Source: Duganella sp. CF458 (GTDB lineage: Bacteria > Pseudomonadota > Gammaproteobacteria > Burkholderiales > Burkholderiaceae_D). Taken from it: a stretch of 64,000 nucleotides of DNA. The stretch's first letter is position 1; every line of letters starts with the position of its first letter. The position numbers and the translations under genes are program-made. The notes beneath the pieces were generated by a model. It was not told the DNA's origin, did no database searches, and saw only the letters and a program-made list of their open reading frames with translations. The stretch lies in NCBI RefSeq assembly GCF_900113115.1, contig NZ_FOOF01000014.1, positions 62,001 to 126,000 on the forward strand. The letters are read 5' to 3'. Shown in pieces: positions 2,944 through 28,689 of the stretch.

Positions 2944-5073
2944 TTACTGCGCGCCCACCAGAGCGGTGACCCGAATAGTCTTCGTCTCCGGAATCTCCGA
3001 ATGCGACAGCACCTTCAACTGCGGCAGCGCGCGGCGCAGGAACTTGGACAGCAGCGGACGCAAGACCCCCGGCACCAGGAGCACCGGCGTCACACCCAGC
3101 GCCTCCTGTTGCTGCGTCGCTGTCGCAGCCTGCTGCGCAATGGTATCGGCCAGCCCCGGCTCGATGCCTGCCGCATCGCCGCCGCCGCTGGTCATGGCCT
3201 GCATCAGCAAGCGTTCCAGGCGGTTATCCAGCGTCATGACCGACAATTCGCCGCCAGCCGGGAACAACTGCTGCACGATCGCCCGGCCCAGTGCCACGCG
3301 CACCTGCGCCGTGAGATCATTCGGATCCTGGGTATGCGGAGTGAATTCGGCCAGCGTCTCAATAATGGTGCGCATATCGCGGATGTGCACGCCTTCCGCC
3401 AACAGGTTCTGCAGCACCTTCTGCAAGGTCGACAGCGAGAGCATCTTCGGCACCAGGTCTTCCACCAGTTTCGGCGCATCCTTGCCCAGGTGATCCAGCA
3501 GCGACTGCACTTCCGCGCGGCCAAGCAGTTCCGAGGCATGCGACGTAATCAGGTGGTTCAAGTGCGTCGCCACCACTGTGCCGGCATCGACCACGGTGTA
3601 ACCCATGCCGGTCGCCTGGTCGCGCAGCGAAGCGTCGATCCAGATGGCAGGCAGGCCAAAGGCCGGATCGGTGGTGACCATGCCAGGCAGCGTACCGCTT
3701 GCCATGCCCGGATTGATCGCCAGGTACTGGCCGTTGAAGGCCTCGCCGGTGCCGACTTCCACGCCTTTCAAGGTGATGCGGTAGGCGGAAGGCTTCAGTT
3801 CCAGGTTGTCGCGGATATGCACCGGCGGCGCCAGGAAGCCGACCTCCTGGGCAAACTTCTTGCGGATGCCCTTGATCCGTTTCAGCAGTTCGCCGCCCTG
3901 GGTCTTGTCGACCAGCGGGATCAGGCGATAGCCCACTTCCAGGCCGAGGGTATCGACCGCCAGCACGTCCTGCCAGGTCGCCTCTTCCTGCTCGGTTGCC
4001 GCCTGCGCACCGCCCGCCGCACCGGCAGCGGCGCCGCCACCTGCTCCGCCGGCTTCCTGGGCCGCCACCGTTTCCCCCTTTTCCCTGGCCTTCTTCTGCA
4101 GCATGTAGCCGGAGCCGATCAGGGTCGCCGCCAGCAGGATGAACACCAGGTTCGGCATGCCTGGAATCAGGCCCAGGCCGCCGATGATGGCGCCGGTGAT
4201 GAACAGCACTTGCGGCTTGCCGAACAGCTGGCTGATCAGCTGGGTTCCGATGTCGGTCTCGGAGGCCACGCGCGACACCACGATACCGGCTGCAATCGAG
4301 ATGATCAGCGAAGGGATCTGCGCCACCAGGCCGTCACCGATCGCCAGCAGCACATAGTTTTTCAACGCATCGGCAAAGCCCATATCGTGCTGGATCATGC
4401 CCACCAGCAGGCCGCCCACCACGTTGATGACGGTTACCAGGATGCCGGCCACGGCGTCGCCGCGCACGTATTTCGATGCACCATCCATGGCGCCGTAAAA
4501 TTCGGCCTCCTGCGACACCTCGTTGCGGCGCCGCTTCGCCTCAGGCTCGCCGATCAGGCCAGCATTCAGGTCGGCGTCAATCGCCATCTGCTTGCCAGGC
4601 ATTGCATCGAGAGCGAATCGCGCGCCCACTTCAGCGATACGGCCAGCGCCCTTGGTCACCACCACGAAGTTGATGATGGTCAGGATCACGAACACCACGA
4701 TACCGACGGTGTAATTGCCGCCGATCAGGAAGTGGCCGAAGGCCTCGATCACCTTGCCTGCCGCATCCGGGCCGGTGTGGCCTTCGGTCAGCACAACACG
4801 GGTCGATGCCACGTTCAACGAAAGGCGCAGCATGGTCGATACCAGCAGCACGGTCGGGAACGCCATGAAGTCGAGCGGCTTGACCGTGTACAGGCTGGTC
4901 AGCAGCACGATGATCGACAGGGCGATATTGAAGCTGAAGAACAGGTCGAGCACGAATGCCGGCAACGGCAGGATCATCATTGCCAGCAGCATGATGATCA
5001 GGATTGGCGCAGCCAAGGCTTGGCCGTTACCGGCAATGCCTTTCAGCCACGGCGGCATGTTCAGGGCGTTCAT
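2944..5073 (-). CDS. flhA: Flagellar biosynthesis protein FlhA
   Basis: FlhA is the large inner-membrane component of the flagellar type III export gate and docks export substrates and chaperones. It has 709 residues, the usual size. The N-terminal half carries about eight membrane helices (roughly residues 20-320). It contains the FHIPEP signature region, with LRLSLNVASTRVVLTEG and the cytoplasmic loop GRIAEVGARFALDAMPGKQM. A Gly/Ala-rich linker at about 335-365 leads to the cytoplasmic substrate-binding domain. It starts 34 bp downstream of flhB and is co-directional with it. Confidence 0.98.
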   Translation of the reverse strand: MNALNMPPWLKGIAGNGQALAAPILIIMLLAMMILPLPAFVLDLFFSFNIALSIIVLLTSLYTVKPLDFMAFPTVLLVSTMLRLSLNVASTRVVLTEGHTGPDAAGKVIEAFGHFLIGGNYTVGIVVFVILTIINFVVVTKGAGRIAEVGARFALDAMPGKQMAIDADLNAGLIGEPEAKRRRNEVSQEAEFYGAMDGASKYVRGDAVAGILVTVINVVGGLLVGMIQHDMGFADALKNYVLLAIGDGLVAQIPSLIISIAAGIVVSRVASETDIGTQLISQLFGKPQVLFITGAIIGGLGLIPGMPNLVFILLAATLIGSGYMLQKKAREKGETVAAQEAGGAGGGAAAGAAGGAQAATEQEEATWQDVLAVDTLGLEVGYRLIPLVDKTQGGELLKRIKGIRKKFAQEVGFLAPPVHIRDNLELKPSAYRITLKGVEVGTGEAFNGQYLAINPGMASGTLPGMVTTDPAFGLPAIWIDASLRDQATGMGYTVVDAGTVVATHLNHLITSHASELLGRAEVQSLLDHLGKDAPKLVEDLVPKMLSLSTLQKVLQNLLAEGVHIRDMRTIIETLAEFTPHTQDPNDLTAQVRVALGRAIVQQLFPAGGELSVMTLDNRLERLLMQAMTSGGGDAAGIEPGLADTIAQQAATATQQQEALGVTPVLLVPGVLRPLLSKFLRRALPQLKVLSHSEIPETKTIRVTALVGAQ

Positions 5074-5107
5074 TCTCGCTTACTCCGTTGGTTATTGCTT
5101 TATTGCT

Positions 5108-6247
5108 TTACTGCGTCTGGTGCAGTGGGTCCATATCATCCGGCACATCGAGCTTGGCCGGACGATCCGGGTAACGCAAGCCTGGACGATAAGCCTTGAT
5201 CTGGTACACATACGCCAATACTTCCGCCACGGCGGCGTACAGGCGCGGCGGGATCTCATCGCCGATTTCGGTATGCTTGTGCAGCGCACGCGCCAGCGGC
5301 GGCGCTTCCAGGATGGCGACGCGATGCTCTTTCGCCAATTCGCGGATCTTGGCCGCCACTTCGTCGGTGCCCTTGGCCACCACGCGCGGCGCGCCCTGCC
5401 CGCCCTCGGCGTATTTCAGCGCCACCGCATAGTGGGTCGGGTTGGTCACCACGACGTCGGCTGTCGGCACTTCCTGCATCATGCGTTTCTTCGCCATGTC
5501 GCGCTGCAGCTGGCGGATTTTGCCCTTGATTTGCGGGTTGCCGTCCGACTCCTTGGATTCCTGGATCAGTTCCTGGCGGGTCATTTTCAGCTTGTTCGCG
5601 TAATGCCATATCTGGTACGGCGCATCGATCAAGGCGATGAAACCCAGTGCGCCAACGATTACGATGAAGCTGAAGCCCAGCATATTCATCACGTGCGTGC
5701 TGCCGGTATGCAGCGGTTCGACCATCAGGCCGATCGCCTCCTGCTGCTGGCGCGAGATGACCATATAGGCCACCACGCCCACCACGATGGACTTGATGAT
5801 GGCCTTGATCAGTTCCACCAGCGAGTTGGTGGAGAACATATTGCCGATGCCCGTGATGGGATTCAGCTTCATGAAATTCGGTGTAAAGGCCTTGGCCGAA
5901 AACAGCCAGCCGCCGACCAGCAGCGGCGATGCCAGGGCCACCACCATCACGGCGACGGCGATCGGCAGGCAGGCCAGCATCACCTGCACCACATCGACCA
6001 GGATGCGGGTAGTCAGGACATCGGGATTGAAGACCTGCTCGCGCGTCAGCGACAGCCCCGAGGTGAGGCTGCGGCTCAATTCGCGCACCAGGCCGGAACC
6101 GGTCATCCACAGGCCGGCGCCCGCTGCCATGAGAACAGTAAAGGTCGCGACTTCGCGCGACCTGGGCACGTCCCCTTCTTCACGCGCCTGCTCGAGGCGC
6201 CTCTGTGACGCGGGTTCTGTTTTCTCGGCTTCGCTGTCTTCAGCCAT
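5108..6247 (-). CDS. flhB: Flagellar export switch protein FlhB
   Basis: FlhB is the export-gate protein whose autocleavage switches secretion from rod/hook to filament substrates. It has 379 residues: a charged N-terminus (MAEDSEAEKTEPASQRRLEQAREEG is typical of the family), four membrane helices between about 35 and 215, and a cytoplasmic domain. The autocleavage motif NPTH is at 269-272. The ribosome-binding site is AGGAG six bases before the ATG at 6247. It is the first flagellar gene of the visible run. I could not identify a convincing FliA or sigma-54 promoter in the 80 bp upstream. Confidence 0.98.
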   Translation of the reverse strand: MAEDSEAEKTEPASQRRLEQAREEGDVPRSREVATFTVLMAAGAGLWMTGSGLVRELSRSLTSGLSLTREQVFNPDVLTTRILVDVVQVMLACLPIAVAVMVVALASPLLVGGWLFSAKAFTPNFMKLNPITGIGNMFSTNSLVELIKAIIKSIVVGVVAYMVISRQQQEAIGLMVEPLHTGSTHVMNMLGFSFIVIVGALGFIALIDAPYQIWHYANKLKMTRQELIQESKESDGNPQIKGKIRQLQRDMAKKRMMQEVPTADVVVTNPTHYAVALKYAEGGQGAPRVVAKGTDEVAAKIRELAKEHRVAILEAPPLARALHKHTEIGDEIPPRLYAAVAEVLAYVYQIKAYRPGLRYPDRPAKLDVPDDMDPLHQTQ

Positions 6248-6328
6248 TGACCGCTCCTGTTATCGACCGTGCCATTATCGCTGCGGCCGGGCAAGAGCTA
6301 TCGCTGGAAAAGGGAGGTAAATCGGGCT

Positions 6329-7360
6329 TTACTCGGCGGGGGCCGCCTCCGGAGCCTGCACCGGCGTAGCTTTCGGACGGCCCAATTGCCAGACTTGCTG
6401 GTCGATGGCGCCGAAGATGGACTTGCCGTCGGCGTCCAGCATGTCGATCTTGATGGTATCGCCGAAGGACATGAAGGGAGTTGTCGGTTTGCCATCGGCG
6501 ATCATCTCCAGGCAGCGCTTTTCGGCGATGCAGGAATAGCCCTTTTTCGCATCCTTGTTGGAGACGGTGCCGGAGCCGACGATGGTCCCGGCGCGGGCAT
6601 TGCGGGTTTTTACCAGGTGCGAGATCAACTGCGCGAAGTTGAAGACCATGTCCACGCCGGCATTGGGCTGGCCTACCAGCTTGCCATTCCAGGTCGAGCG
6701 CAGCGGCAGGTGGACCTTGGCATCCTTCCAGGCATCGCCCAGTTCGTCCGGCGTAACGGCCACCGGCGAGAAGCTGCTGGCCGGCTTGGACTGGAAAAAG
6801 CCGAAGCCTTTGGCCAGTTCCTCGGGGATCAGGTTGCGCAGGGATACGTCGTTGACCAGCATCAGCAGGCGAATCTGCTGGAAGGCCAGGTCGGGCGTGG
6901 CGCCCATTGGCACATCGTCGGTAATCACGGCGATTTCCGATTCGAAATCGATGCCCCATTCCTCGTGTTTCAGCGCGATGTCGTCGCAAGGACCGATGAA
7001 ATCATCGCTGCCACCCTGGTACATCAACGGGTCTTCCCAGAACGACGCCGGCATTTCCGCGTTGCGTGCCTTGCGTACCAGTTCAACGTGATTGACGTAG
7101 GTGGAGCCGTCGGCCCATTGATAGGCGCGTGGCAGCGGCGCCATGCAATGCTTCGGTTCGAAGTCGAAGCTGCGGCGGGCCTTGCCCTCGTTGAGTTGGC
7201 GGTACAAGTCGTCGAGCTGGGCCGAGATGAAACTCCAGTCATCCAGCGCGCGCTGCAAATTGCGGGCAATGCCATCGGCGACCACGGCGGTCTTCAGGTC
7301 GCGGGAAACGACGAGCAACTGGCCGTCGCGGGTGCCGTCTTTGAGGGTGGCTAGTTTCAT
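6329..7360 (-). CDS. Fumarylacetoacetate hydrolase family protein
   Basis: This is a member of the FAH superfamily of metal-dependent hydrolases that split C-C bonds in beta-diketo acids, such as products of aromatic catabolism. It has 343 residues with an N-terminal FAH-type cap domain and the catalytic fold from about 100 onward. The metal-binding segment is GIDFESEIAVI, with acidic residues E140 and E142, and GTIVGSGTVSNKD lies in the later catalytic loop. It is monocistronic, convergent with nothing upstream, and shares no pathway neighbours here, so the substrate cannot be assigned. It may be a true fumarylacetoacetase or a paralogue of unknown substrate. Confidence 0.85.
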   Translation of the reverse strand: MKLATLKDGTRDGQLLVVSRDLKTAVVADGIARNLQRALDDWSFISAQLDDLYRQLNEGKARRSFDFEPKHCMAPLPRAYQWADGSTYVNHVELVRKARNAEMPASFWEDPLMYQGGSDDFIGPCDDIALKHEEWGIDFESEIAVITDDVPMGATPDLAFQQIRLLMLVNDVSLRNLIPEELAKGFGFFQSKPASSFSPVAVTPDELGDAWKDAKVHLPLRSTWNGKLVGQPNAGVDMVFNFAQLISHLVKTRNARAGTIVGSGTVSNKDAKKGYSCIAEKRCLEMIADGKPTTPFMSFGDTIKIDMLDADGKSIFGAIDQQVWQLGRPKATPVQAPEAAPAE

Positions 7361-9865: not shown

Positions 9866-10582
9866 TTAGGTCGGCGCCAGCAGCGCGAGCTGTTCGGGAG
9901 TGAGGTAGCACCACTCGCCTTCCTGCAGGCCGAGCGAGTCAAGCTGCAGTTGGCCGATGGCGGACCGATGCAGTGCCGAGCAATGATTGCCGGCGGCGGC
10001 CAGCATGCGTTTGACCTGGTGGTATTTGCCCTGCTCGAGCACGATCTCGAGCTGGTTCTCGCCGCGCTTGATGCAGGTAACAGCCGCCAGCGGAGCAGGC
10101 TCATCGTGCAACTGGACGCCAGCCAGCATCTGCGCAACCAGCTCGCCGGTCACCGGTTCAGCCGTCGTGGCCAGGTAGACCTTCGGCACGTGGCGCTTTG
10201 GCGAAGACTGGGCATGGATGAATGGCCCATCGTCGGACATCAGCAGCATGCCGGTGGTGTCATGATCGAGACGGCCGACCGGCTGGACTTCGCGCCAGGT
10301 GAATTGCTCAGGGAGCAAGGTCAGCACGCCAGGGTGATGGCTGGGCTTGCGGGAGCATTCGTAGTCGGATGGCTTGTACAGTGCAATATAGAGGTGTTCG
10401 CGATAGACCCACTCTTCGCCAAACACTTCCAGCACCAGGCCGTCGGTTTCGATCGTCGCTTTATAGTTGTCCTGCACTGCGCCGCCGATGGAAACGTCAC
10501 CGTCTTCGATCAGGGCGCGGCAGTATTTACGGGTGCCGAAGCCTTGCGACTGCAGGATTCGGTCCAGGGATAATTTACTCAT
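9866..10582 (-). CDS. RsuA/RluB/E/F family pseudouridine synthase
   Basis: This 238-residue rRNA pseudouridine synthase isomerises uridine to pseudouridine in ribosomal RNA. An N-terminal S4-like RNA-binding domain (SLDRILQSQGFGTRKYCRAL, about 5-24) is followed by the catalytic domain with GRLDHDTTGMLLM (103-115), where D106 is the expected catalytic aspartate. The start at 10582 (MSKLSLDRIL) fits family N-termini; an upstream ATG at 10639 would add 19 poorly fitting residues. It resembles the 16S U516 enzyme RsuA most, but RluE- or RluF-type specificity is not excluded. An FNR-type site lies 44 bp upstream on the divergent side. Confidence 0.88.
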   Translation of the reverse strand: MSKLSLDRILQSQGFGTRKYCRALIEDGDVSIGGAVQDNYKATIETDGLVLEVFGEEWVYREHLYIALYKPSDYECSRKPSHHPGVLTLLPEQFTWREVQPVGRLDHDTTGMLLMSDDGPFIHAQSSPKRHVPKVYLATTAEPVTGELVAQMLAGVQLHDEPAPLAAVTCIKRGENQLEIVLEQGKYHQVKRMLAAAGNHCSALHRSAIGQLQLDSLGLQEGEWCYLTPEQLALLAPT

Positions 10583-10625
10583 GGGGCGGGATTTTACCGG
10601 ATTTACGTTACCGCAAGCTTCCCTA

Positions 10626-10639
10626 TTGATGCAGATCAA
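10626..10639. promoter_or_regulatory. Perfect FNR/ANR-type binding site TTGAT-N4-ATCAA
   Basis: The sequence TTGATGCAGATCAA is an exact match to the FNR/ANR/CRP-FNR-family consensus. A possible -10 element TACACT starts at 10661, which would place the site centre at about -41 of the rightward transcript. That is the classical class II activator position. The rightward target would be the small ORF at 10726. The leftward gene is the pseudouridine synthase. Confidence 0.6.
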
Positions 10640-20450: not shown

Positions 20451-22340
20451 ATGGAACAGAACATCAGTGCATTGATCCTGGCAGGCGGCCGCGGCACCCG
20501 CATGGGCCGCGTAGACAAAGGCTTGCAGCCATTTCGCGGCGGCACGCTGGCTTCGCATGTGCTGCAGCGGCTTGCGCCGCAGGTGGCCAGCGTCACCATC
20601 AACGCCAACCGCAACATCGGCGCATATAGCGCGCTCGGTGTGGCGGTGCTGCCCGATGAACTGGAAGGCTACGAAGGCCCGTTGGCCGGACTGCAAACCG
20701 GGCTGCGTCATTGCGCCACTGACCTGCTGCTAACCGCACCCTGCGACTCTCCCTTCCTGCCGCCCGATCTGGCGCAGCGCCTGTACGATGCGCTGAACGC
20801 CCAAGGCGCCGACCTCGCCGTGGCGGCCACGCTGGAAACCGGCGAAGACGGCAAGGCCCGCACGCAACTGCATCCCGTATTCTGCCTGGTGCGCAAGAGC
20901 GCCCTGCCCGTGCTGGACGACTACCTGCAAACCGGTTCGCGCAAGATGGATGGCTGGTACAAGTCGGTCAAGGTGGCCGAAGTGCTGTTCAACGACGCGG
21001 CCGCCTTCCGCAACATCAATACGCTGAGCGAGTTGCAGAACGAGGAAGATGCCGCCGCCAATCCTTCGCTGAAAGATGTGGCGAGCTGCCTGTCCGGCTA
21101 CGATCCGGACGCGCTGCCGGTGCGTCATGCGCAGCGCATCATCCGCGACTTCATCCAGCCGGTGCGCGGCATAGAAAAAGTCGCCCTGCGCAGCGCCCTG
21201 GACCGCGTGCTGGCGGCCGATGTGATTTCGCCGATCAACGTTCCCGCGCATGACAATTCCGCCATGGACGGTTTTGCCTTTGCGGGCGCCCAGCTCAAGG
21301 CCGAGGGCAATACCACGCTGAAGGTGATCGGCACCGTCTACGCCGGCCGCCCCTCCGCATTGAAACCGGGTCCTGGTGAATCCGTACGCATCATGACCGG
21401 CGGCGTCATGCCCGATGGCTGCGACACCGTGCTGCCGCAGGAGCTGGCCGCAGACCTGAGCGAGGTCGCCGTGACGATCGCGCCGAATTCCGTGCGCACC
21501 GGCGACAACCGCCGCTTCAAGGGCGAGGACCTGGCCGCCGGCACGCCCGCCCTGCGGCAAGGCAAGGTGTTGCGTCCGGCCGACCTGGGCCTGCTCGCCT
21601 CGCTCGGCCTGGCCGAAGTGCCGGTACAACGCCGCCTGCGGGTAGCCTTCTTCTCCACCGGCGACGAGTTGCGCTCGATCGGCGAGCCGCTGGCCGAAGG
21701 CTGCGTCTACGACAGCAACCGCTACACCCTGTTCGGCATGCTGCAGCGGCTTGGCTGCGATATCGTCGACATGGGCATCGTGAAGGATGACGCGGCATCG
21801 CTCGAAGAAGCCTTGCGTACAGCCTGCGAGTGCGCCGACGCCGTGATCACGTCCGGCGGCGTCTCAGTCGGTGCGGCGGATTACACCAGGCAGGTCATGG
21901 CCACGCTGGGCGACGTGCACTTCTGGAAGATCGGCATGCGCCCCGGCCGCCCGATGGCGTTCGGCCGCATCCGCTCCAACGGCCACAGCGCCTACCTGTT
22001 TGGCTTGCCGGGCAACCCGGTGGCCGTGATGGTTACCTTTTACTTCTTCGCCCGCCATGCGCTGTTGCGCATGATGGGCGCCGACGCGCCCGGCGACCAG
22101 TTGCTGCGGGCCCGGTCCGCCCAGGCTATCCGCAAGAAGCCCGGCCGCACCGAATACCAGCGCGGCATCCTGTCCACCTCAATGGATGGCACCTGCGAAG
22201 TCCGCATCACCGGCTCGCAAGGCTCCGGCATCCTGCGCTCGATGTCGGAAGCGAACTGCATGGTGGTGCTTCATGACGAACAAGGCAATGTCGCCGAGGG
22301 CGACCCGGTTGAGGTCATCGTCTTCGAAGGGCTCACCTAA
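20451..22340 (+). CDS. mobA-moeA: Fused MobA-MoeA: molybdenum cofactor guanylyltransferase and molybdopterin molybdenumtransferase
   Basis: This single 629-residue frame joins two consecutive enzymes. Residues 1-195 are MobA (LAGGRGTRMGRVDKG at 10-24, PCDSPF at 97-102), which attaches GMP to molybdenum cofactor. Residues 207-628 are MoeA, which inserts molybdate into adenylated molybdopterin (DNSAMDGFAF at 268-277, FSTGDEL at 401-407, SGGVSVGAADY at 468-478, GLPGNP at 518-523). The junction NEEDAAANPSLKDV is short and shows no stop or restart codon. I know these mostly as separate genes. It is presumably cytoplasmic and may channel cofactor, but that is inference. Confidence 0.93.
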   Translation: MEQNISALILAGGRGTRMGRVDKGLQPFRGGTLASHVLQRLAPQVASVTINANRNIGAYSALGVAVLPDELEGYEGPLAGLQTGLRHCATDLLLTAPCDSPFLPPDLAQRLYDALNAQGADLAVAATLETGEDGKARTQLHPVFCLVRKSALPVLDDYLQTGSRKMDGWYKSVKVAEVLFNDAAAFRNINTLSELQNEEDAAANPSLKDVASCLSGYDPDALPVRHAQRIIRDFIQPVRGIEKVALRSALDRVLAADVISPINVPAHDNSAMDGFAFAGAQLKAEGNTTLKVIGTVYAGRPSALKPGPGESVRIMTGGVMPDGCDTVLPQELAADLSEVAVTIAPNSVRTGDNRRFKGEDLAAGTPALRQGKVLRPADLGLLASLGLAEVPVQRRLRVAFFSTGDELRSIGEPLAEGCVYDSNRYTLFGMLQRLGCDIVDMGIVKDDAASLEEALRTACECADAVITSGGVSVGAADYTRQVMATLGDVHFWKIGMRPGRPMAFGRIRSNGHSAYLFGLPGNPVAVMVTFYFFARHALLRMMGADAPGDQLLRARSAQAIRKKPGRTEYQRGILSTSMDGTCEVRITGSQGSGILRSMSEANCMVVLHDEQGNVAEGDPVEVIVFEGLT

Positions 22341-24726: not shown

Positions 24727-25977
24727 TCAGGCGGGACTGTCGCCGTCGGCGTCAGCGCCATCGGCCGCCCCCAGCATGAGCAAGGCCTCGTCGGATGGCA
24801 GCGCTTCGACGGACTTGAGCTTGCGCGCCATCTGGCGGCTGCGGACCTCAGCGTTTTCAATATTGCGGGCGGCGCGTTCCAGCGTGGTCTTGGTGGCGGC
24901 CAGGACGTCGCCGAATTTGGCGAACTCGGTCTTCACGGCGCCCAGCACTTGCCATACTTCGGACGAGCGCTTTTCCAGCGCCAGCGTGCGGAAGCCCATT
25001 TGCAGGCTGTTCAACAGTGCGGTCAATGTCGAAGGACCGGCGATGCTGACCCGGTTCACGCGCTGCAGTTCGTCGGCCAGGCCGGGCCGGCGCATCACTT
25101 CCGCGTACAAGCCCTCGGTTGGCAGGAACAGGATCGCGAAGTCGGTCGTCAGCGGCGGCGCGAGGTATTTCTCCGCGATCGTCCTGGCCTCGCCGCGCAC
25201 GGCGCGTTCCAGTTCCCGCCCGGCTGCGGCCACGGCGTCGGCGTCGGCACGGTCGGCGGCTTCCAGCAGGCGTTCGTATTGCTCTTTCGGGAATTTGGCG
25301 TCGATCGGCATCCACACCGGCGCCCCGCCCTCTTTCTGGCCCGGCAGTTTCAGCGCAAATTCCACGCGCGCATTGCTACCCGGGATGGTCTCGACGTTCT
25401 TGGCGTATTGGTCCGGCGTGAGGATTTGCTCGAGCAGCATTTCCAGCTGCACCTCGCCCCAGGTGCCGCGGGTCTTCACATTGGTCAGCACGCGCTTCAA
25501 ATCGCCGACACCCAGCGCCAGTTGCTGCATTTCGCCCAGCCCCTGGTGCACGCGCTCCAGGCGTTCGGACACCTGGCGGAACGATTCCGTCAGGCGCGTT
25601 TCCAGCGTTTCGTGCAGCTTTTCATCGACCGTCTTGCGCATTTCCTCCAGCCGCGCGCCGTTGTCGGACTGCAGCTCGCGCATCTTGGTTTCCAGCGCCA
25701 CGCGCACTTCCAGCAGGCGGCGCGTGTTCGATTCGGTCAACACTTCGATCTGGCGGCGCATGGTTTCGAGCTGCTGCACGGTGGCCGCATGCGACTGCGC
25801 GAGCATATTTCCCATCTCCTGGCGCTGCGCCTGCGCGGTGGCCTGCAATTGCAGGCGCACTTCGCGTTCGACACGGTCAAGTTGATCGGCCACGTCGCCG
25901 CCGCGGCTGCGCAGCAGCGAAACAATTTGCAGGACGATGATGACGGCGGCCAGCGCCAGCAGGATGGTCAACTCCAT
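24727..25977 (-). CDS. rmuC: DNA recombination protein RmuC
   Basis: RmuC limits inversion at short inverted repeats and is thought to act at structured DNA. The 416-residue protein has an N-terminal membrane helix (MELTILLALAAVIIVLQIVSL), a long coiled coil (about 30-140) and the RmuC nuclease-like domain. The domain includes GTWGEVQLEMLLEQ, PIDAKFPKEQYERLL and FLPTEGLYAEVMRRPGL. The start at 25977 overlaps the haemoglobin stop by one base (TGATG), indicating coupling. A longer ORF upstream is rejected because it runs through the haemoglobin gene. Confidence 0.95.
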   Translation of the reverse strand: MELTILLALAAVIIVLQIVSLLRSRGGDVADQLDRVEREVRLQLQATAQAQRQEMGNMLAQSHAATVQQLETMRRQIEVLTESNTRRLLEVRVALETKMRELQSDNGARLEEMRKTVDEKLHETLETRLTESFRQVSERLERVHQGLGEMQQLALGVGDLKRVLTNVKTRGTWGEVQLEMLLEQILTPDQYAKNVETIPGSNARVEFALKLPGQKEGGAPVWMPIDAKFPKEQYERLLEAADRADADAVAAAGRELERAVRGEARTIAEKYLAPPLTTDFAILFLPTEGLYAEVMRRPGLADELQRVNRVSIAGPSTLTALLNSLQMGFRTLALEKRSSEVWQVLGAVKTEFAKFGDVLAATKTTLERAARNIENAEVRSRQMARKLKSVEALPSDEALLMLGAADGADADGDSPA

Positions 25978-26369
25978 CAATCGGCCTTGTTCCGCATCCA
26001 GTCGGCGGTCTGGTAGAACGATTCCATCAGCCTGAGGCGCAGGTCTTCTGCGATGCCGACATCCTGCATCGCCCATGCCATGCAGCGCAGCCATTGGTCG
26101 CGCTCAGTCGAACCGACCGCGAAAGGCAGGTGGCGCGCCCGCAGGCGCGGGTGGCCGAAGCGTTCAATAAACAGGTCCGGACCGCCCATCCAGCCGCTCA
26201 GGAACCAGAACAGCTTGTCGCGCGAGCCGTCGGTGCTCGGCGGGTGCATGGCGCGGATGCCGGCGAATTCCGGCTCCAGCTCCATCAGGTCGTAAAAACG
26301 GTCAACCATCTGGCGCAGCTTGCTTTCGCCGCCGATGACTTCGTAAAGGGTGCGTGCTTCATCATTCAT
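25977..26369 (-). CDS. Group II truncated haemoglobin (TrHbO-like)
   Basis: This is a 130-residue globin with the compact 2-on-2 fold. Tyr26 (FYDLM, B10), the proximal His80 in RARHLPF and Trp93 (QWLRCM, G8) are the features of group II truncated haemoglobins. Such proteins bind oxygen and can detoxify nitric oxide or peroxide. The start at 26369 gives MNDEARTL. A perfect FNR-type site lies 26 bp upstream. The nearest -10-like TATCAT (26381-26376) would start transcription almost at the ATG, so leaderless or repressed expression is possible. Confidence 0.93.
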   Translation of the reverse strand: MNDEARTLYEVIGGESKLRQMVDRFYDLMELEPEFAGIRAMHPPSTDGSRDKLFWFLSGWMGGPDLFIERFGHPRLRARHLPFAVGSTERDQWLRCMAWAMQDVGIAEDLRLRLMESFYQTADWMRNKAD

Positions 26370-26394
26370 AAGGCAATGATAGCGCATGGACGTA

Positions 26395-26408
26395 TTGATG
26401 TGGATCAA
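26395..26408. promoter_or_regulatory. Perfect FNR/ANR-type site between haemoglobin and sensor kinase genes
   Basis: TTGATGTGGATCAA matches TTGAT-N4-ATCAA exactly. It lies in the 91-bp divergent gap between the truncated haemoglobin and the CqsS/LqsS-like kinase. It does not sit at an obvious class II distance for either, so it could act as a repressor site or control both. Confidence 0.6.
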
Positions 26409-26460
26409 GCATAGTGCTGATTCTGCGCAAAATGCGCCCACAAACCGCCATGATTGCCAG

Positions 26461-27690
26461 ATGATCCGACGCCTCATCCGAACCCGCCTGCGCGCCCGCA
26501 GTGTCGAGGAAATCGCCGACCTGCGCCTGGCCGCCTTAAGCTGGCTCGGAATCACCTGCTTTCCCCTGTATTACGCCATTTTCGGCTGGCTGGTGCCGCA
26601 ACCTTACGAAAGCCTGGCGGCGCGCGCGATCGGCACCGCGCTCGGTATTGGCGGCCTGCTGGCACGCCGGCTGTCGCCGCGCCTGCGCAACCGCTACACC
26701 CTGCTGCTGGTGACCTATGAGCTGCCGTTCTTCTGCACCTTCATGTTCCTGATGAACCACGCCAACGTCACCTGGGCCCAGGTGATGCTCGTGATGCTGG
26801 TGGCACTGTTCCATTTCGAACCCCGCCTGGCGTTGCGCGCGGGCGCGATCGGCATCAGTGCGGCCACGCTGCTGGCGATCGCACTCGGCGCCGGCGGCGT
26901 CCTGTTCTCTGCTTCGGTGTTGCAACTGCTGCCCGTGCAATTGTTCCTGGTCGGCTGGATGTGGGTGTTTTCGCAAAGCCGCAAGGCGCTGGAAGAAGAA
27001 AAGCTGGACGGCCTGGGCGACGGCCTGGGCGCCGTGGCGCACGAAATGCGCACCCCGCTGGCCAGCCTGGATGCCAATGTGCGCGGCCTGTCGCGCATTC
27101 AGCAGCGCGCCGGACAGGACAATCCCGCGGTGCGCCAGGCACTGGGCCGCATGCAATACGAGGTGCGCCACATGAACCATATGATCGACCTGTTCCTGCT
27201 CAGCGCGCAGGCGGTGCGGCAGAAGCTCGATCCGCACGAAACCGTGTCCATGCTCGATACGGTCGAATCGGCGCTGCGCCGCTATCCTTTCACCGGAGAG
27301 GCCCAGCGCCAGCTCGTTGCGCTGCAAGTGCGCAGCGACTTCCGCTTCGGCGGCCAGAACGAGCTGGCCATCATGCTGCTGTTGAATCTCCTGCGCAATG
27401 CGATGCAGGCGGTGCAGCGCGCCGGCAAGGGACGGGTCAGGATCGTGATCGACGGCTGCCGGCCGGTGCCGCGCGTCCTGGTGATCGATACCGGCTGCGG
27501 TATTTCGCCGCAACACCTGCCAATGATTTTCCAGCGCTTCTTCACTTATCCAGAGCATAATGGCGCCGGTATCGGCCTGGCTTTGTGCCGCCAGGTGATG
27601 CAAGCGTGGCAAGCGAAACTACATTGTGTCTCCCGCGAGCACGCATATGCTATCTTTGTGCTTGAATTCCCCTTAAAAGCAAGCCGTTGA
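26461..27690 (+). CDS. CqsS/LqsS/JqsS-like sensor histidine kinase
   Basis: The 409-residue kinase has a six-helix sensor (about 23-172) whose FPLYYAIFGWLVPQPYESL (34-52) and LPFFCTFMFLMN (88-99) closely resemble the CqsS family. That family senses alpha-hydroxyketone autoinducers (CAI-1, LAI-1). The kinase core follows: phospho-acceptor His194 in AHEMRTPL, N box NLLRNAMQA (309-317), G1 DTGCGI (343-348) and G2 GAGIGLAL (368-375). There is no fused receiver, as in LqsS and unlike Vibrio CqsS. The response regulator starts 3 bp downstream. No autoinducer synthase gene is in the window. The ligand is inferred by family. Confidence 0.75.
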   Translation: MIRRLIRTRLRARSVEEIADLRLAALSWLGITCFPLYYAIFGWLVPQPYESLAARAIGTALGIGGLLARRLSPRLRNRYTLLLVTYELPFFCTFMFLMNHANVTWAQVMLVMLVALFHFEPRLALRAGAIGISAATLLAIALGAGGVLFSASVLQLLPVQLFLVGWMWVFSQSRKALEEEKLDGLGDGLGAVAHEMRTPLASLDANVRGLSRIQQRAGQDNPAVRQALGRMQYEVRHMNHMIDLFLLSAQAVRQKLDPHETVSMLDTVESALRRYPFTGEAQRQLVALQVRSDFRFGGQNELAIMLLLNLLRNAMQAVQRAGKGRVRIVIDGCRPVPRVLVIDTGCGISPQHLPMIFQRFFTYPEHNGAGIGLALCRQVMQAWQAKLHCVSREHAYAIFVLEFPLKASR

Positions 27691-27693
27691 ACC

Positions 27694-28689
27694 ATGAAAC
27701 TGCCCGTTTACGCCCACCCAACCATGACCGTCCTGGTGGACGACAGCGATACCTTCCTGCATAGCCTGGTATTCCAGCTCGATCCCATGCAGGCCAGCGT
27801 GTGCTTCCATGACCCCCTGCAGGCACTGGAATGGTTCAAGACCAATGCCCAGAGCAGCGAATTGCCGCTGCAGGTGGATTTCGACAATCCGAACCAGTCG
27901 GCCGAGCAGCGCAATGTGGCGGTGGACCTGGAGCAGATCTACCGGATTTCCGGCCAGCGCCAGCGTTTTTCCATTCCCTCAGTGCTGGTGGTCGATTACT
28001 CGATGCCGCAAATGAACGGCGTGGCGTTCTGCCAGGCGATCCAGCATCTGCCCTGCAAGAAGATCCTGTTCACCGGCCAGGCCGATGAAAAGATCGCGGT
28101 GGATGCGTTCAACCGCGGCCTGATCGACCGCTATATCAAGAAAAGCGCGGACGACGCCCTTGACCGGCTGGAAGAGGAAGTGGCGGCGCTGCAGAAGGCG
28201 TTCTTCCAGGAACAGTCGGAAACCCTGCTCGATATGCTGGTACTGCACGAGTTCAGCTTCCTGCGCTGCGGTGCGCTGGCCAAGGTCGTGCAGCAGTTAT
28301 ACCAGGAACACGGCTTCGTCGAGCACTACCCTTTCCCTAGCCCGAGCGGCATCCTGTTCTTCAAGGCCGACGGCTCGGCGCAACTGATGGTGGTGGAAAC
28401 CCAGCGCGGTTACGAGTCGCAGGTGGAAATGGCGCGCGACAGCGGCGCCCCGCAATCGCTGGTGGAAGCGCTGGAAGAAAAGCGCATGCTGCCTTTCTTC
28501 CCGCCGGACGGCATGTATTCGGATGAAGTGGGCCAGCACTGGCACCGCTACTGCAAGGCGCCGCAGGTGTGCAAGGGGCTGGAAACCTATTACTGGGCCC
28601 TGTTCGAGGTCGACCCGGCCCTGCTCGATATCCAGCCTACCCCTTACGCGGAATTCCTGCGCCAGCATACGCCGCCGCTGGCCGCGTAA
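27694..28689 (+). CDS. LqsR-like response regulator with atypical receiver
   Basis: The 331-residue regulator has an N-terminal receiver: acidic pair D16-D17 (VLVDDSD), phospho-acceptor D101 (VLVVDYSMPQMNG), T127 (LFTGQ) and K149/K150. Compared with CheY, about 40 extra residues (48-92) separate the second and third strands. The C-terminal half (about 180-331) has no DNA-binding motif I recognise and contains HEFSFLRCGALAKVVQQLY and GYESQVEMARDSG. Layout and length match LqsR of Legionella, whose output domain is nuclease/nucleotide-binding-like. It is co-transcribed with the kinase. Confidence 0.65.
   Translation: MKLPVYAHPTMTVLVDDSDTFLHSLVFQLDPMQASVCFHDPLQALEWFKTNAQSSELPLQVDFDNPNQSAEQRNVAVDLEQIYRISGQRQRFSIPSVLVVDYSMPQMNGVAFCQAIQHLPCKKILFTGQADEKIAVDAFNRGLIDRYIKKSADDALDRLEEEVAALQKAFFQEQSETLLDMLVLHEFSFLRCGALAKVVQQLYQEHGFVEHYPFPSPSGILFFKADGSAQLMVVETQRGYESQVEMARDSGAPQSLVEALEEKRMLPFFPPDGMYSDEVGQHWHRYCKAPQVCKGLETYYWALFEVDPALLDIQPTPYAEFLRQHTPPLAA

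Follow-up and report, generated by a model that had tools for sequence, protein, structure and literature searches.

A JqsS-JqsR sensor-regulator pair without its autoinducer synthase, and with an altered sensor pocket, in Duganella sp. CF458 and its Pseudoduganella-type relatives

A 64,000-nucleotide stretch of the genome of Duganella sp. CF458 (contig NZ_FOOF01000014.1, positions 62,001 to 126,000 of the forward strand; hereafter the window, numbered from its first letter) encodes a sensor kinase and response regulator of the alpha-hydroxyketone quorum-sensing family with no autoinducer synthase. The corresponding full system, consisting of the synthase JqsA, the sensor kinase JqsS, and the regulator JqsR, has been described in Janthinobacterium/Duganella sp. 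HH01 (PMC3566124 and PMC5080296). The locus in the window comprises the following features:

25977 to 26369, minus strand: truncated haemoglobin (PF01152, Bac_globin, E 4.3e-41), here directly facing jqsS
26370 to 26460, no strand: lost jqsA site by synteny, the gap between haemoglobin and jqsS in which relatives carry a divergent synthase
26395 to 26408, no strand: the box TTGATGTGGATCAA, which matches an FNR-type box as well as the JAI-1 motif TTGA-N6/7-TCAA
26461 to 27690, plus strand: jqsS-type orphan sensor kinase, 409 amino acids from the ATG at 26461 (longer open reading frame [ORF], 26386 to 27690)
27694 to 28689, plus strand: jqsR, an LqsR-family response regulator of 331 amino acids with D101 as the predicted phospho-acceptor

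The kinase carries FPLYYAIF...PQPYESL and LPFFCTFMFLMN, which an earlier note on this DNA had taken as the sensor layout of CqsS and LqsS, followed by a HisKA (PF00512) and HATPase_c (PF02518) core by Pfam, with the phosphorylated histidine, H194, in the motif HEMRTPL. A profile-profile search with the N-terminus upheld that assignment, matching Vibrio CqsS with a probability of 98.6 (E 5.9e-16, 29% identity over 166 columns) and synthase-linked JqsS at E 6.7e-51, and these matches rule out an unrelated sensor family. An AlphaFold2 model contains six long helices, counting one that leads into the kinase core (mean predicted local distance difference test score, 73.9), and the kinase is thereby predicted to have the homologous six-transmembrane sensor domain that characterizes CqsS, LqsS, and JqsS. 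A sequence-profile search of the PDB with the sensor returned 0 matches, and the 50 matches listed by a PDB fold search appear, from their titles, to be kinase cores with a few larger kinases among them. The start at ATG 26461 is likelier than the upstream ATG at 26386, both because the latter adjoins the box and because, when the 12 intact orphan kinases from beyond the window's own 7-genome clade are aligned, 8 match only from residue 21 of the long form or later (the other 4 align from residues 2 to 7). The earlier note also placed an LqsR-like regulator 3 bp after the kinase and a truncated haemoglobin at the divergent promoter, and both are as it described: the kinase stop ends at 27690 and the regulator ATG stands at 27694, while regulator residues 3 to 313, nearly the full length, match PDB 6sy9_A (E 4.7e-41), labeled in the search table only "Response regulator" and which we take to be Legionella LqsR. 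The receiver core lies late in this protein, at residues 91 to 154 by Pfam.

We searched for the synthase with the NCBIfam model NF005526 (alpha-hydroxyketone-type autoinducer synthase; cut-off, 428 bits), a test that works, because six JqsA proteins of relatives, used as positive controls, score 522.8 to 551.5 bits. No protein in the 6.34-Mb genome exceeds the cut-off; there are four matches, the best at 186 bits against the 428 expected of a synthase that would complete the system. This bears out the earlier note, which had reported no synthase in the window, and extends its observation to the whole genome. That a synthase of another family in the same genome makes the ligand is highly improbable: the four alpha-oxoamine-synthase-like proteins that match NF005526 below its cut-off would be the candidates, but the first three, from the best downward, exceed the cut-offs for Kbl (glycine C-acetyltransferase), BioF, and the uncharacterised subfamily PRK07505, respectively, the fourth has no NCBIfam match at E 1e-20, and none lies on the contig of the jqsS-jqsR pair.

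Among named relatives (the best 80 of 95 loci), 67 have a synthase-like ORF divergent to jqsS, often between jqsS and the haemoglobin gene; six of these ORFs were tested directly with NF005526. Ten loci have the kinase without a synthase (L018 to L024, L029, L030, and L089), and they belong to Duganella Root1480D1 and Root336D2, Massilia eburnea, six named Pseudoduganella species, and one Pseudoduganella metagenome-assembled genome. At three more, from two Cupriavidus genomes and "Burkholderiaceae bacterium 16," both the synthase and a nearby kinase are missing. Whole-genome searches with NF005526 found a protein over the cut-off in 0/10 of the orphan-locus genomes and in 8/8 comparison genomes, including both Cupriavidus and "Burkholderiaceae bacterium 16." Pseudoduganella danionis (L085) retains a synthase, and therefore the orphan clade is not equal to the named genus Pseudoduganella. 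One of the orphan genomes, P. violaceinigra DSM 15887 (L021/G004; no synthase over the cut-off, best match 185.6 bits), is among the genomes of PMC5080296, where the cluster is said to be present in all but one strain; the mismatch may be a matter of scope, as the discussion there concerns Janthinobacterium and Duganella isolates.

The genus as a whole (74 genomes) has a synthase over the cut-off in 45 genomes and the regulator in 71, and we read the surroundings of the regulator in all of the latter. They comprise 44 genomes with jqsA-jqsS-jqsR, 19 with jqsS-jqsR, 1 with a broken pair in which kinase and regulator are both in pieces (G050, locus L148, regulator 5001 to 5992), and 7 with jqsR alone at the locus (R-only). 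The three remaining genomes are G048 and G081, which lack both regulator and synthase, and G074 (60% complete), which has the synthase only; in G048 (6% contamination) the permease gene adjoins the haemoglobin gene. The slot has a common order, rmuC - haemoglobin - [jqsA] - [jqsS] - jqsR - permease, with G039, G055, and G073 as exceptions, stretches inserted before the permease in some genomes, and rmuC not detected in G063. In synthase-bearing relatives the truncated haemoglobin lies downstream of jqsA, which occupies the slot between haemoglobin and jqsS in 41 of the 44 synthase-bearing genomes, the other 3 having jqsA-jqsS-jqsR without the usual flanks. Because most relatives in the genus hold jqsA at this position, its absence from the window is, by gene order, a real loss. 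A missed or relocated synthase is ruled out by the whole-genome searches with their positive controls, and an assembly gap by the contiguity of the haemoglobin-jqsS junction in the window and by the fact that 10 of the 27 synthase-less regulator-bearing genomes are single contigs. The earlier note had allowed for a synthase always adjacent to the pair in relatives and overlooked here; most relatives do have one, but in this lineage it was deleted, not missed.

In a tree built from the flanking proteins (75 rows including 7 outgroup rows, with G039, G055, and G073 left out for want of the usual flanks), the 27 synthase-less rows fall on one side of a branch with support of 94/78, found in 93% of bootstraps and left unstarred by the program. 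The jqsR tree, which groups 26 synthase-less rows (support, 81), and the jqsS tree, which groups 19 (support, 99), both agree with it. A single clade of the seven R-only genomes was rejected on the flank tree (p-AU, approximately unbiased test, 0.0016), leaving two separate groups. The simplest history suggested by these trees is one loss of jqsA in the Pseudoduganella-type ancestor and at least two losses of the kinase. Elsewhere in the genus, the jqsA of Duganella aquatilis (L068, genome G025, approximately 5690 to 6538) has one in-frame TGA, with only a short ORF found, and may be a separate, recent loss of the synthase.

Across 195 genomes sampled from the family, 44 have the synthase over the cut-off and 57 have the regulator. 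Seven genomes from five other genera have the regulator with no synthase match (an eighth, G112, with a partial match of 412 bits, was not counted), and in these seven no recognisable jqsS was found within 1.7 to 4 kb on the upstream side of the regulator (tblastn, E 1e-4), the rest of the genomes not having been searched. Within the sampled genomes, the retained jqsS-jqsR pair is thus, by gene content, special to the Pseudoduganella-type clade. Three R-only loci from two other genera (L246, L251, and L252) lie beside rmuC and the same permease, with a box in the gap in L251 and L252 and not in L246. LqsR-type regulators also occur on plasmids. That of Massilia violaceinigra stands beside ParA/ParB (L224, 5001 to 5981), and that of Legionella lytica has ParB, a replication protein, and a HAMP kinase nearby (L225, 5001 to 5849); the stretches read around these two carry no annotated synthase.

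The orphan sensors have a changed ligand pocket. In Vibrio cholerae CqsS, W104 and S107 set head-group specificity, F160, F162, and F166 are gatekeepers, and C170 sets tail length; the serine is also retained in LqsS, as S114 (PMC3376566). Alignment with CqsS proteins from three Vibrio records places W105, V108, Q160, F162, W166, and F170 of the window at CqsS W104, S107, F160, F162, F166, and C170; of the specificity residues W104, S107, and F162, the window sensor keeps the tryptophan and the phenylalanine and has valine for the serine. Among genus genomes, S108 is present in 43/44 synthase-linked sensors versus 0/19 orphans, which hold V, C, W, or L at this position, and F162 is present in 44/44 versus 11/19. 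Named loci together with the window, a set that overlaps the genus genomes, give the serine in 66/67 synthase-linked and 0/11 orphan sensors, and it is present in 5/5 further synthase-linked sensors (3 Vibrio, 1 Cupriavidus, and 1 Oxalobacteraceae). This tally leaves out L093 to L095, which have no jqsS hit, and the further sensors number five because L255, L256, and L258 duplicate L096, L097, and L078; G050 was left out of the kinase and regulator alignments. W105 is present in all aligned orphans (19/19 in the genus). We rejected a second candidate hallmark, E107Q: the genus has E in 44/44 synthase-linked and Q in 19/19 orphan sensors, but Q also occurs in 12 of the 67 synthase-linked sensors of the named loci. 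By alignment, then, a residue that is conserved elsewhere, from Vibrio through to Oxalobacteraceae, has disappeared from the sensor that no longer has a synthase.

Since the pocket serine is lost in all orphans, we read the pocket as pointing to a changed ligand, which seems likelier than eavesdropping. In the latter case the orphan sensor would still bind the hydroxyketones of jqsA-bearing Duganella, Janthinobacterium, and Massilia neighbours, as LuxR solos do for other signals, and the retention of W105, P158, H118, and overall sensor homology would be accounted for. The F170 carried by the window's 7-genome clade could also be explained in this way, as it matches F175, the residue that restricts Vibrio harveyi CqsS to C8 tails, and the Vibrio change C170F has the same effect (PMC3285556). 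We nevertheless consider eavesdropping unlikely, given that S108 is absent in 19/19 and F162 in 8/19 of the genus orphans, when the equivalent of S108 is kept in Vibrio, in Cupriavidus, and in LqsS. The suggestion in the earlier note that the ligand is made by neighbours is weakened by the absence of the CqsS specificity residue S107 from every orphan sensor of the genus.

The pair itself looks alive: it retains its catalytic residues, and no part of it is better conserved than the receiver. H194 is present in the aligned kinases, and D101, D16/D17, and K150 are present in 70/70 aligned regulators, R-only ones included, with T127 replaced in 3/7 R-only regulators. We compared selection using pairs of genomes on separate tree paths, picked by hand (7 orphan, 16 synthase-bearing, and 3 R-only; all p values are nominal). 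The median ratio of nonsynonymous to synonymous change (dN/dS) in the receiver was 0.03 in orphan, 0.07 in synthase-bearing, and 0.17 in R-only pairs; relative to the flanking permease, the receiver changed less in orphans than in synthase-bearing pairs (p 0.005) and more in R-only pairs than in orphan (p 0.017) or synthase-bearing (p 0.023) ones. These comparisons indicate that purifying selection acts on the receiver domain. The ratio of amino acid change in the sensor to that in the kinase core was higher in orphans than in synthase-bearing pairs (p 0.012; 7 versus 16 pairs). This faster sensor change would fit decay or unliganded signalling, with the sensor drifting, the kinase constitutive or driven by growth state, and the locus eroded gene by gene, as would the 7 genus genomes, in two separate groups, in which jqsS was not found at the locus, the fragmented genes of G050, and the loss of both regulator and synthase from G048. 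Such decay is quite unlikely in our estimation, as the pair is intact in 19 genomes, sensor dN/dS is approximately 0.17 to 0.25, and the difference in receiver dN/dS between orphan and R-only pairs is that expected if the kinase still matters.

The box in the promoter gap, at 26395 to 26408, is a perfect match to what we take to be the FNR-type consensus, TTGATN4ATCAA, and the earlier note had seen this site correctly. By sequence, the same positions carry the TTGA-N6/7-TCAA promoter motif of the JAI-1 regulon, which was derived from sequences upstream of chiA, jqsA, and vioA and put to the test with a 49-bp deletion at vioA; the main text of PMC5080296, in the portion available, makes no mention of FNR. 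Both TTGATN4ATCAA and TTGA-N6-TCAA occur twice in the window, against expectations of 0.04 and 0.55, respectively; for the looser TTGA-N6-TCAA, 13/100 shuffles are as good, and its match is weak taken alone. Across the genus, the motif is in the jqs promoter gap of 68/71 genomes (41/44 synthase-bearing, 19/19 orphan, 1/1 broken, and 7/7 R-only), and the three without it are the clusters that lack the usual flanks. Where jqsA occupies the slot (41 genus genomes), no motif was found between haemoglobin and jqsA. Around the start of the haemoglobin ORF, from 350 bp upstream to 150 bp within it, 9/9 synthase-bearing loci examined had no box (6 with the gene away from jqsA and 3 with it directly downstream of jqsA). 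There was also none in 3.4 kb around the haemoglobin gene of G048, where a deletion may have removed the box physically. These boxless regions rule out the box as a haemoglobin element; it is most likely part of the jqs locus, and the haemoglobin gene most likely came directly under it when jqsA was lost. FNR may nevertheless bind the box, because the genome encodes FNR (NF008365, 250 versus a cut-off of 228 bits) and the same box precedes nirK, the copper nitrite reductase gene (TIGR02376, 353 versus 296 bits); the genome contains 15 FNR-type boxes versus 0 for a reversed control. The proposal in the earlier note that low oxygen or nitric oxide meets cell-density signalling here is not supported as a special junction, as the box fits the JAI-1 motif and, in the loci examined, tracks the jqs genes.

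Two further observations concern these motifs. In 33/44 synthase-bearing genomes, the jqsA-jqsS gap holds a pair of TTGA-N6/7-TCAA boxes at a distance of exactly 66 bp; it holds one box in 8 and none in 3, and the 19 orphan pairs have one box each. The second TTGATN4ATCAA site of the window, at 10626 to 10639, lies at the start of a pseudouridine-synthase ORF (9866 to 10639, minus strand; TIGR00093, 128.5 versus 109.3 bits).

We hypothesize, with a probability of roughly 60%, that the pair is a remnant of a jqsA-jqsS-jqsR cluster from which the synthase was deleted in an ancestor and that its sensor answers a cue that is not the ancestral one. The deletion would have happened, most simply, once, in the ancestor of the Pseudoduganella-type clade; JqsS would still phosphorylate JqsR at D101; and JqsR would act, directly or through another factor, on genes with TTGA-N6/7-TCAA, potentially with its own divergent promoter among the targets and, now, the haemoglobin gene as well, while the sensor would respond to something other than the ancestral hydroxyketone. 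The broader proposal, that the receptor-regulator pair of the whole clade was turned into a sensor of a different molecule after synthase loss, with the old box and output kept, is tentative, and we put it somewhat short of an even chance. Several points weigh against the hypothesis. Because the orphans share one ancestor, a single event may account for the lost serine, although V, C, W, or L now occupies its position, and W105 in 19/19 orphans together with F162 in the window sensor means that related hydroxyketones could still be bound. Plain dN/dS does not differ significantly between orphan and synthase-bearing pairs (sensor p 0.41, core p 0.34, receiver p 0.09). The branch joining all 27 synthase-less rows is well but not fully supported, and the kinase, absent in two R-only groups of the clade and broken in another genome, is dispensable in places.

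The window locus shares with HH01 the gene set and order, except for jqsA, and the TTGA-N6/7-TCAA motif; it differs in that its genome has no synthase of the family and its sensor has no equivalent of the S107 serine. Vibrio CqsA/CqsS has a homologous sensor, with equivalents of W104, F162, and H194 in the window, but CqsS, a hybrid kinase, contains a receiver of its own and has a cognate synthase, and the window has V108 for S107. The Legionella LqsA/LqsR/LqsS system is similar in its regulator, which aligns through 6sy9_A over nearly the full length and is phosphorylated at D108 where the window has D101, but Legionella pneumophila has a synthase and a second, unlinked sensor, LqsT (PMC3376566, PMC5289986). 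An LqsR-type regulator that outlives its synthase is already known in Ralstonia PhcX, kept after the loss of lqsA; in the Ralstonia solanacearum complex the sensors are also missing and the gene lies beside phcBSRQ, whereas here jqsS and jqsR remain together in their original slot. By eye, no obvious phcBSRQ lies within 8 kb at the Cupriavidus locus L094. The literature searched, which covered few subscription papers, yielded no description of a sensor-regulator pair that had been kept with its pocket altered. Elsewhere in the window, a single ORF of 629 amino acids (20451 to 22340) joins MobA (TIGR02665, 209 versus 152 bits) and MoeA (NF007960, 562 versus 440 bits).

Judged from the genomes compared, the evolutionary remodelling of this known signalling family is real and well supported, and its function is what we infer. 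The published JAI-1 motif cannot be told by sequence from an FNR-type box, which matters for how the JAI-1 regulon is read. Within one genus and at one locus, synthase, sensor, and regulator are missing stepwise, providing a natural experiment that makes it testable, at named residues, whether a hydroxyketone receptor can change its ligand once freed from its synthase, and suggesting a role for LqsR-type regulators that persists once the autoinducer is gone.

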